This document shows, piece by piece, positions 14,014 through 16,785 of a stretch of DNA of 64,000 nucleotides (positions are counted from its first letter, which is position 1; each line of letters opens with the position of its first letter). The DNA is taken from positions 1 to 64,000 of the forward strand of contig WHTV01000005.1 of NCBI GenBank assembly GCA_009377535.1. Direction: 5' to 3'. The notes under the pieces are model-generated. The model was not told where the DNA came from. It did not search any database and saw nothing but the letters and a program-made list of their open reading frames with translations. Source of the stretch: Kiloniellaceae bacterium (GTDB lineage: Bacteria > Pseudomonadota > Alphaproteobacteria > Kiloniellales > Kiloniellaceae). Position numbers and translations under genes: made by a program.

Positions 14014-15075
14014 ATGACCAAGAACAATCCCGGCAACTTCTTCGAGGACTTCCGCCTCGGCCAGGTGCTGCGCCACGCCACGCCGCGCACGGTGACCGCC
14101 GGCGACCAGGCGCTCTACACCGCGCTCTACGGCGCACGCTTCGCCCTGCAGTCCTCCGCGGTCTTCGCCCAGGCCTGCGGCCTGCCGGCGGCGCCGATCG
14201 ACGACCTGCTGGCTTTCCACATCGTCTTCGGCAAGACGGTGCCCGACGTGTCGCTGAACGCCGTCGCCAACCTCGGCTACGCGGACGGCCGCTTCCTGGC
14301 GCCGGTCTACCCCGGCGACACGCTTTCCGCCGAGAGTGAGGTGGTCGGCCTGAAGGCGAATTCCAACGGCAAGACCGGCGTGGTCTACCTGCGCAGCCGC
14401 GGCGCGAACCAGCGCGGCGAGGCCGTGGTGGAGTACACGCGCTGGGTCATGGTGCGCAAAGGCGATGCCGCCGCGCCGGCGCCCGAGCCGGTGTTGCCGG
14501 AGCTGCCGGCGGCGGTGAGCGCCGGCCGCCTGGCGGTTCCCGAGGGCCTCGACTTTTCCGGCTTCGACTTCGCGGCGGCGGGCGCGGCCCACCGCTGGGG
14601 CGACTACGAGGTCGGCGAGCGGATCGACCATGGCGACGCCATGACCATCGAAGAAGCCGAGCACCAGCTGGCCACCCGGCTCTACCAGAACACGGCGCGG
14701 GTGCACTTCAACCAGCACGCCGAAAGCGAGGGCCGCTTCGGTCGTCGCATCGTCTACGGCGGCCACGTGATTTCCCTGGCGCGAGCCCTCTCTTTCAACG
14801 GCCTCGGCAGTGCGGTGAAGATCGCGGCCATCAACGCCGGCTGCCACGCCGCGCCCAGCTTCGGCGGCGACACCATCTATGCCTGGTCGGAAGTGCTCGA
14901 AAAGCTGGAGATCCCCGGCCGCAGCGACCTCGGCGCCCTGCGCCTGCGCACCGTGGCGGCCAAGGATCTCGCCTGCTGCGCCTTTCCCTACCAGGCGGTC
15001 TCCGAGGAAGGTCGGGGCGGCTATCATCCGGCCGTGGTGCTCGATCTCGACTACACGGTGCTGCTGCCGCGGTGA
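14014..15075 (+). CDS. mch: MaoC family protein, probable mesaconyl-CoA hydratase
   Basis: A 353-residue double hot-dog MaoC-like hydratase. The N-terminal GNFFEDFRLGQVLRHATPRT and the stretch AVANLGYADGRFLAPVYPGDTL are strongly like the mesaconyl-C1-CoA hydratase of Rhodobacter, which interconverts mesaconyl-CoA and beta-methylmalyl-CoA in the ethylmalonyl-CoA pathway. The second hot-dog half begins near residue 195 (WGDYEVGERIDHGD) and contains the RIVYGGHVISLARAL segment. The ATG at 14014 follows GAGGGACACCGG. It forms a two-gene unit with the CoA-ester lyase and ends nine bases before the predicted structured RNA on the other strand. Confidence 0.88.
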   Translation: MTKNNPGNFFEDFRLGQVLRHATPRTVTAGDQALYTALYGARFALQSSAVFAQACGLPAAPIDDLLAFHIVFGKTVPDVSLNAVANLGYADGRFLAPVYPGDTLSAESEVVGLKANSNGKTGVVYLRSRGANQRGEAVVEYTRWVMVRKGDAAAPAPEPVLPELPAAVSAGRLAVPEGLDFSGFDFAAAGAAHRWGDYEVGERIDHGDAMTIEEAEHQLATRLYQNTARVHFNQHAESEGRFGRRIVYGGHVISLARALSFNGLGSAVKIAAINAGCHAAPSFGGDTIYAWSEVLEKLEIPGRSDLGALRLRTVAAKDLACCAFPYQAVSEEGRGGYHPAVVLDLDYTVLLPR

Positions 15076-15150
15076 GGCCGATATGTGGTACAGATTTGCG
15101 CCTGCACCACAAAATTTAGTTGAATCGGGAGAATCACTGCTGTAATGAGT

Positions 15151-15225
15151 GAGGCGCCGGGTTGCAGTGCGGGTGGGCCCCCACTGCGGCGTGCCCCGGA
15201 AGAAAGGGCACTAACCCGACGCCTC
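15151..15225 (-). other. Three-way junction near the 3' end of the structured RNA
   Basis: On the minus strand GAGGCGUCGGGUU pairs with AACCCGGCGCCUC as a continuous 13-bp stem with one U.G pair; on the plus strand that pair is a C.A mismatch. Inside it are two hairpins: 15191-15196 with 15206-15211 (GTGCCC/GGGCAC) and 15064-shifted partner 15164-15169 with 15182-15187 (GCAGTG/CACTGC). This is the best-formed local domain of the region. Confidence 0.65.
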
Positions 15226-15227
15226 AA

Positions 15228-15243
15228 GAGCTGGATCCAGCTC
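15228..15243. repeat. Perfect 16-base palindrome
   Basis: GAGCTGGATCCAGCTC is fully self-complementary. As RNA it forms a 6-bp stem with a GAUC loop. It lies two bases from the three-way junction and is probably part of the structured RNA. Confidence 0.7.
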
Positions 15244-16145
15244 AACGCGATTGCAGCGGCGGCGGGTTCTTTTCAGCCTTCGCGCGCGGATACCGGGCCT
15301 GGCGTGACCGATAAAGCGCAGCGAGATCACTGATCTCCCCGAGGGGAGCGAACTCACCAGGTCGGGCCTGCCATCCCTTCGACCGCCTCTCCGACATCCG
15401 ATCCCAGGCGTCTTCGCATGAGGCAAGCCTCCTCGAAGCCGTATGGGCTCTCCCCGGGGCGCAGGCGGGGTCCCGAAGGATCCCGTCCGAACGGAGGGCA
15501 GCACGAGGCTTACCTCCCGTCTTTTCAAGGTCTCCGGCAAGCAGCCTCTTGCGAGGTGGCTTCCCGGGCCGCGGCCGGCACCCTCGCGGGTACCTTACCT
15601 CGGCCGGTCAAGACCTTCGCGCAGGGCCCTTGCGGAACCTGCGCGGTCCCGGATCGGCCAACTCCCCGACGCGGAGGAAGGGAAGCGGCCTCTGCCGGAA
15701 AGGTGGTGGTCGACGTTCGACCGACACCTCCCCTCCGAAAGCCAGGATCTGCAGGGCAACCTGTCTTCCGATGCCGGACGGGCCGCCCCCGAAGAGGCCG
15801 TCCGTCCCCGAACCGCGGCTGGCGCACCACCTGATCTGCAAAAAGTTCCCGAAGGAACCCTCTTGGACCGGGCCGGTCTCCGGCCCGAGGGCCGCTGCAC
15901 CTTGCTGCCCTCGGCCCGAAGGCCGGCTTGGCAAGGCCGGAGGAAACCGAAGCTTCCCCGAAGACCGCTGCATCTCGTATGGACCAGGAACCCGAAAGCT
16001 CCCGACCCTCCAAGCTGCTTCTCCGTCGAGCCGAAGCTCTTGGGAGAGGGCCGCACCGCCGTAATCCGGCGCTTTCACGTGCAAGAAGATGCTCGCGCGA
16101 ATGGCAGTGAGGGACAACATTAAATTGCCGGAGAACCCAGAAATC

Positions 16146-16174
16146 TTGTGCATAGTTTCGCCGTAACTACACAA
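16146..16174. repeat. Imperfect inverted repeat upstream of the structured RNA
   Basis: TTGTG-CA-TAGTT and AACTA-CACAA flank a 7-base loop, giving 10 bp with a 2-base bulge. It lies between the 5' side of the predicted minus-strand RNA and the sdhC promoter. It could be a regulator site, part of the RNA, or a terminator; none is proved. From 16175 to 16255 I see no gene or clear signal. Confidence 0.45.
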
Positions 16175-16255
16175 TCTCTTCACATCTTGCCCACAGCCCT
16201 ATCCACATGGCCTGCGTGTGGCGGCCCTCGCGAGGGTAAGGCGACGGGGCGCGCG

Positions 16256-16284
16256 TTGACTAATGTTGCGCTGCGGTCTAAATC
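16256..16284 (+). promoter_or_regulatory. Strong sigma70-type promoter for sdhCDAB
   Basis: TTGACT (16256-16261) and TAAATC (16279-16284) are separated by 17 bases. Transcription should start near 16291, giving a leader of about 100 bases before the sdhC ATG at 16390. Apart from GAAGGCAG near 16373 I see no other element in this leader. Confidence 0.7.
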
Positions 16285-16389: not shown

Positions 16390-16785
16390 ATGATCTCTTC
16401 CAACCGGCCTTTGTCGCCGCATCTGCAGGTCTATCGCCCGCAGATCACCTCAACCCTCTCGATCCTGCACCGCCTCACCGGGGTGGCGCTGGCGCTCGGC
16501 ACGCTGCTGCTGACTTACTGGCTGATCGCGGCGGCCTCGGGGCCGGAGGCTTTCGCCGACGCGCAGGGGCTGATCGGCTCCATCCTTGGGCGCCTGGTGC
16601 TGTTCGGCTGGACCTTCGCGCTGTTCTTTCACCTCTGCAACGGCATCCGCCACCTCGCCTGGGACGCCGGCTACGGCTTCGAGATCGAGACGACGACGCG
16701 CAGTGGCTGGGTCGTGGTGGGCGCCTCGGTGGTGCTGACTCTGGTCTGCTGGGTGGCCGGCTACGTCGCGATGGCAGGGGCCTGA
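16390..16785 (+). CDS. sdhC: Succinate dehydrogenase cytochrome b556 subunit
   Basis: Membrane anchor of complex II, 131 residues. The N-terminal RPLSPHLQVYRPQITSTLSILHRLTGVAL is the conserved quinone-site and membrane-entry segment. HLCNGIRHLAWD (about residues 78-89) supplies the heme-ligand histidine region. Three membrane spans are seen. It is the first gene of sdhCDAB, three bases before sdhD, with a strong promoter upstream. Confidence 0.96.
   Translation: MISSNRPLSPHLQVYRPQITSTLSILHRLTGVALALGTLLLTYWLIAAASGPEAFADAQGLIGSILGRLVLFGWTFALFFHLCNGIRHLAWDAGYGFEIETTTRSGWVVVGASVVLTLVCWVAGYVAMAGA

Follow-up and report, generated by a model that had tools for sequence, protein, structure and literature searches.

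A stretch of 64,000 nucleotides from a Kiloniellaceae bacterium (GCA_009377535.1, contig WHTV01000005.1, positions 1 to 64,000; hereafter the window, in whose numbering all coordinates are given) carries, on its minus strand between mch and sdhC, a gene of about 930 nt for a structured noncoding RNA. Comparison of homologous sequences makes it nearly certain that this RNA family is real. The gene probably encodes a stable structured RNA of a so far undescribed alphaproteobacterial family that responds to DnaA, the initiator of chromosome replication, and acts in trans. By the named records, the genus of this marine bacterium is Pelagibius (P. marinus NBU2595 plus metagenome-assembled genomes) and the relatives are Kiloniellaceae; in P. 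marinus NBU2595 the locus is found on scaffold NZ_JACSDK010000001.1 near 556.7-557.8 kb. An earlier note on this DNA had proposed selection for a large minus-strand RNA at 15085-16127, and both folding stability and extensive covariation support that proposal. The DnaA-box-like array, the promoter, the short paralogues and the class-wide distribution described below go beyond what the note observed.

The RNA and its parts are as follows.

15150..16082, minus strand: structured noncoding RNA gene, about 930 nt, from the start predicted from the promoter to the end of the 3' closing helix (covariation, strand asymmetry, non-coding indels, synteny)
15140..15310, minus strand: part of the RNA behind model R1, comprising a GCCAGG segment, a GAGC-GCUC hairpin and the 3' domain (alignment A1)
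15150..15226, minus strand: 3' terminal domain, consisting of UGAGGCGUCGGG, two hairpins and CCCGGCGCCUCA (compensatory changes among 61 distinct sequences)
15108..15149, minus strand: conserved 3' tail ending in CAACTAAATTTTGTG, within or just beyond the RNA (almost invariant in Pelagibius and G011)

The proposed boundaries were thus close: the predicted start lies at about 16082, the 3' closing helix reaches 15150 and the conserved tail 15108.

Covariation, strand and coding potential

Eight full-length Pelagibius homologues were aligned (A3), giving a consensus fold of 275 pairs in which 92.4% of cells are paired, a share biased in the fold's favour because that alignment also served to predict the structure. 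Stronger evidence comes from the double changes and the strand comparison. Compensatory double changes occur at 85 pairs, against 51.7 in shuffles (0/500), and the same fold slid by one to three columns retains only 20-32 such pairs. These controls correct for phylogeny only in part, but the slid structures, which preserve relatedness, fall far below the observed value. Covariation in homologous spacers, which the earlier note had named as a check, is extensive. The consensus energy is -327.9 kcal/mol on the minus strand versus -210.7 kcal/mol on the plus strand. A G.U bias towards the minus strand, claimed from the single sequence, is borne out by the homologue alignment, where helices predicted with G.U pairs forbidden contain 57 G.U versus 23 A.C cells, and the reverse on the plus strand. 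Lengths of pairwise indels between homologues leave a remainder of 1, 2 or 0 on division by three in 352, 129 and 24 cases, and no open reading frame across the RNA region matches a Pfam family; a protein-coding reading was rejected on these two grounds. As judged from the alignments, the fold is under selection and non-coding, features that the locus shares with large structured noncoding RNAs as a kind. A further pairing, helix 2, joins the 5' segment CACGNGA to UC(A/G)CG beside the 3' domain, with one compensatory change, and would hold the ends of the main body together.

The 3' domain can be followed further. Among 61 distinct sequences, in an alignment that was fitted to the model and so leans towards it, 96% of cells are paired and 21 of 25 pairs show compensatory changes (0/500 shuffles). 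In many homologues, a run of U comes after its basal GC helix, on which ground the domain may double as a terminator. In the Pelagibius tail, 15108-15122 (CAACTAAATTTTGTG) is partly complementary to CACAAGATTT, which adjoins the inverted box of the upstream array.

All eleven minus-strand hairpins listed in the note are present with their stated loops, and 75 of their 79 stem positions pair. Hairpins of the C(UUCG)G type with a stem of at least four pairs number six on the minus strand, versus a mean of 0.2 in dinucleotide shuffles (0/300 reach six); there are none on the plus strand and none on either strand of the flanking mch and sdhA. GNRA hairpins number three, versus 0.9 in shuffles (11/300). 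Excess folding stability over shuffles, another proposed check, was found for about 1 kb of the minus strand, with z = -4.8 for the RNA proper and -4.6 for 15085-16127 (0/60 shuffles). The plus strand over about 1 kb gives z = -2.8 or -3.7, and coding controls give -0.6 to -1.0. Folding energy alone is weak evidence, since single 200-nt windows inside the RNA show a small effect (minus strand, z from +0.7 to -2.0).

Homologues and short copies

Within the genus, blastn matched the RNA DNA in six of seven other genomes. The seventh, G006 (86% complete), has no match for either the RNA or sdhC, which is consistent with an assembly gap. One genome, G001, has two copies, each between sdhC and mch; these two diverged sdhC-RNA-mch loci (L021, L022) may stem from genuine duplication or from a mixed bin. 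Nearly all homologues of the order keep the arrangement sdhC, RNA, mch where the contig reaches, with spacers of 1.06-1.7 kb. G035 and G050, which belong to a different family, have about 2 kb more sequence between the RNA and mch; judged by eye, this extra sequence (L029 3599-5850, L030 5765-7794) apparently consists of genes.

A covariance model of the 3' part of the RNA, R1, matched seven families of the order (32 of 61 genomes). Its weaker matches include second copies of a short form located elsewhere, just upstream of which a 5' DNA profile found a counterpart of the upstream element. A second model, R2, describes the short-form 3' domain and was trained on nine of ten copies away from sdhC; it matched 37 of 385 genomes in a sample of the class, and R1 run over the class found largely the same genomes. 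The 5' DNA profile, which was built from 30 sequences, mostly long forms, and is independent of R2, was present upstream in 28 of 30 retrieved R2 loci. In a sample of the phylum, R2 matched within Alphaproteobacteria only, including one further family (f30), and no match fell outside the class. The family spread comes to about 21 families of Alphaproteobacteria at E <= 1e-4, the E-values of the RNA models being rough. Among the named sdhC loci, R2 finds the 3' domain in 19 array-bearing spacers besides the Pelagibius reference, and its matches are essentially confined to array carriers, with one weak exception (L128).

Some sdhC loci of the same order lack a detectable array or RNA (L292, L293 and L294 of genus g3; L286, L287, L289), through loss or strong divergence. 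Two others (L290 and L291, from G048 and G025) have an array upstream of sdhC and no 3' domain by R1 or R2; their RNA is possibly more divergent.

The distance from promoter to the end of the 3' domain ranges from about 180 to 1,000 nt across homologues. At the lower end are the short paralogues (L081, L082, L083, L084, L085, L086, L088, L090, L091; about 180-270 nt), which have the same upstream array and unrelated genes nearby. They keep only the promoter, the 5' segment and the 3' domain, and their neighbours include genes for a phosphoribosyltransferase, a homocysteine methyltransferase, DUF1223, TauE, an esterase, an M81 peptidase and DUF1326. Several genomes carry both long and short forms. 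The window's own genome contains no second DNA copy of the RNA locus; one candidate, G000:C16 (R2 E = 0.008), was rejected as it lacks the 5' array. Reading the locus as a mobile element was likewise rejected, given its single copy in its own genome and no matching phage or plasmid relatives.

The upstream array and the neighbouring genes

The conserved DNA element upstream of the RNA extends to 16207 and contains the following features.

16199..16207, minus strand: DnaA-box-like site 1, read as TGTGGATAG on this strand and as TTATCCACA with one mismatch on the plus strand (conserved among the 97 aligned sequences)
16187..16195, minus strand: DnaA-box-like site 2, TGTGGGCAA, conserved as a direct repeat at a distance of about 12 nt from site 1
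16176..16184, minus strand: weaker direct repeat 3, TGTGAAGAG, consensus TGTGGA (alignment consensus)
16167..16174, minus strand: direct repeat 4, TTGTGTAG, with TTGTG highly conserved (alignment consensus)
16147..16155, minus strand: inverted DnaA-box-like site, CTATGCACA, family consensus TTATNCACA (match and fixed spacing in the 97-sequence alignment)
16112..16117, minus strand: predicted -35, TTGTCC (TTG in 94 of 97 aligned homologues)
16089..16094, minus strand: predicted -10, GAGCAT, 17 nt after the -35 hexamer (A at position 2 and T at position 6 in 89/97; spacing of 17 in 82/97)

The 97 upstream elements align almost free of gaps, as TGTGGATAA .. CTGTGGAAAA .. TGTGGA .. TTGTG ... TTATGCACAAGAA ... 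TTGnnn-N17-nAnnnT ... GCACGCGAAAGCG; the direct boxes have the family form TGTGGAnAA and the promoter the form TTG-N20-nAnnnT. Compared with the DnaA box TTATNCACA, the inverted site has no or one mismatch in 80/97, whereas the corresponding fraction for random 9-mers of the same composition is 0.0002. In all 97 it precedes the -35 by 35-36 nt, and in 92/97 it lies at a distance of 22 from TTGTG. For the box and promoter features together, collapsing the 97 elements to 61 clusters leaves 50/61, 58/61 and 54/61. Several homologues have perfect TGTGGATAA and TTATCCACA boxes, and site 1 is the sole match to TTATCCACA with at most one mismatch in the window. An exact DNA pattern for the array returned no matches, the pattern being too strict. 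The array shows no enrichment of GANTC (CcrM) sites (0.55 versus 0.57 expected).

Judged by these alignments, the RNA has a conserved, sigma-70-like promoter geometry of its own. Boxes of the form TTATNCACA occupy a conserved position relative to the -35 and -10, as at a DnaA-regulated promoter, and the fixed box-to-promoter geometry argues that the array regulates the RNA promoter. We infer that DnaA probably binds the array and controls the RNA.

Two genes flank the RNA.

14014..15075, plus strand: mch (MaoC / mesaconyl-CoA hydratase-like), convergent with the RNA and not overlapping it (Pfam PF19315, PF01575)
16390..16785, plus strand: sdhC, divergent from the RNA (TIGR02970 above cut-off)

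The 3' end of the RNA falls about 75 bases short of the mch stop codon, and the RNA is transcribed away from sdhC. A likely sdhC promoter, TTGACT-N17-TAAATC at 16256-16284 (plus strand), is kept in Pelagibius. Between it and the array lies a variable stretch of roughly 50-225 nt, and the interval from array to RNA promoter is fixed. From sdhC onwards (16390-57567), the window holds a large tricarboxylic acid cycle and energy cluster: sdhC, sdhD, sdhA, then sucC, sucA, sucB, lpd, xerC-like, priA, atpA and atpD.

Possible roles and known systems

In the explanation that we favour, DnaA would bind the direct and inverted boxes, so that RNA synthesis would follow the level or nucleotide state of DnaA and thereby replication initiation and the cell cycle. 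Transcription would start near 16082, pass through a central multibranched region and end at the 3' domain. The product would act in trans as a stable RNA or ribonucleoprotein, in which the 3' domain would be the functional core shared by the forms and the central region a variable scaffold, and it would couple some feature of growth or of the cell cycle to the state of replication. Action in trans is likely, given that the genes beside the short copies are unrelated and that the long form does not overlap either of its flanking genes. Several observations weigh against this explanation. Box 1 is unrecognisable in part of the homologues; the -10 is weak by comparison with the E. coli consensus, and promoter prediction finds none in the region. 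Pelagibius has no U run directly after the 3' domain and instead has the conserved 42-nt tail. Roughly one in two genomes of the order, and the majority of those in the class, have no match, so the RNA is not universally required. DnaA binding rests on motif and spacing, and another factor could use the array.

The last point leads to the most serious alternative, to which we assign a minor share of the likelihood, namely a trans-acting structured RNA whose array is bound by a regulator other than DnaA. Direct repeats spaced by 12 nt together with an inverted site could suit another oligomeric factor. Such a factor would have to account for an inverted site that in most homologues departs from TTATNCACA by at most one base, and for the homologues with perfect TGTGGATAA and TTATCCACA boxes.

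Somewhat less probable is that the array serves as a site of DnaA titration or inactivation, similar to datA or DARS, with transcription of the RNA mainly remodelling or clearing DnaA. In G004, G007, G013 and G017, four genomes from two genera with sizes of 4.7 to 8 Mb, about 280-320 kb separate the RNA and its array from hemE/parS, and in E. coli datA is modulated by read-through transcription from a tRNA (PMC10950094). The present array resembles datA and DARS as an off-origin DnaA-box cluster, and datA also as a site influenced by neighbouring transcription (PMC10950094), but differs in its fixed spacing to the promoter of a conserved structured RNA. An RNA serving only by the act of transcription would not retain 85 covarying pairs, and box-to-promoter spacing fixed to one base in 97 sequences points to promoter control. 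The similar distances to hemE may also merely mirror conserved gene order, or may have relevance to gene dosage.

We regard as doubtful a role in cis, in which the RNA would be a long leader, antisense or spacer transcript controlling sdh or mch. Both genes are constant neighbours in most families, and the sdh promoter sits in the same spacer. The RNA, however, is directed away from sdhC and overlaps neither gene, it is parted from mch by the additional 2 kb in G035 and G050, and the short copies occur beside unrelated genes.

The DnaA boxes also raised the hypothesis that the locus is the chromosomal origin (oriC) and the RNA an origin transcript. A DnaA-box array by an AT-richer stretch, conserved across families, is indeed found here; a GC-skew change and close parS or hemE are not. 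In G004, the GC skew flips between 660 and 700 kb, hemE lies at 692 kb and two perfect parS at 704-706 kb, and the RNA sits at 972 kb. The distance between RNA and hemE measures 305-319 kb in G007, G013 and G017. With parS and hemE 270-320 kb away in these four genomes, and two arrays at different loci in several genomes, the hypothesis was ruled out using parS, dnaA, hemE and GC skew, and we attach hardly any likelihood to it. Just as remote is the idea of a DNA-level repeat, a cruciform or a protein-coding gene, for although high GC yields long chance open reading frames on both strands, the idea is contradicted by strand-asymmetric covariation, G.U bias, indels not in threes, the lack of a protein family match and the lack of another copy in the genome.

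No known family accounts for the RNA. In line with the earlier note, which recognised none, Rfam 15 gives no match in the window at gathering score, and homologous loci match only tRNA elsewhere; weak matches (mir-874, ACA64, SorX and similar, the best of them unrelated families such as microRNAs and small nucleolar RNAs) were rejected as far below gathering scores. OLE, GOLLD and ROOL are likewise bacterial noncoding RNAs of large size, with a high degree of structure and densely packed hairpins, but their covariance models give no match at gathering score and none at E<=10 in the RNA region. Unlike them, the present RNA is alphaproteobacterial, chromosomal at sdhC, strongly variable in length and provided with a DnaA-box-array promoter. 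The raiA motif RNA (ModT, PMC11706538) is also a widespread conserved structured bacterial RNA, but occurs in Bacillota and other phyla, whereas the present RNA is without an Rfam match. The nearest precedent is CcnA of Caulobacter crescentus, an alphaproteobacterial noncoding RNA associated with DnaA boxes, at the chromosomal origin (PMC8959179). The present RNA, up to about 1 kb long and about 300 kb off the origin, is set apart from CcnA by size, place and regulator; it lacks the location at the origin, and the full CtrA box TTAA-N7-TTAA that characterises CcnA occurs in 0/97 of the aligned upstream elements. No description of the RNA was found in a search that covered the open-access literature.

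The RNA represents a family absent from Rfam 15, with strong covariation and members in about 21 families within one of the major classes of bacteria. Large structured RNA classes are rare in bacteria, and every one of them has led into a new area of biology. We suggest tentatively, and at less than even odds, that Alphaproteobacteria have a dedicated DnaA-driven class of stable structured RNA, long at sdhC and short elsewhere, which signals the initiation of replication or acts back on it, an RNA layer of cell-cycle control without a described counterpart. That the replication initiator DnaA controls a structured RNA is a testable hypothesis, and with a cultured host, Pelagibius marinus, the possible link to replication physiology is directly testable by genetics.
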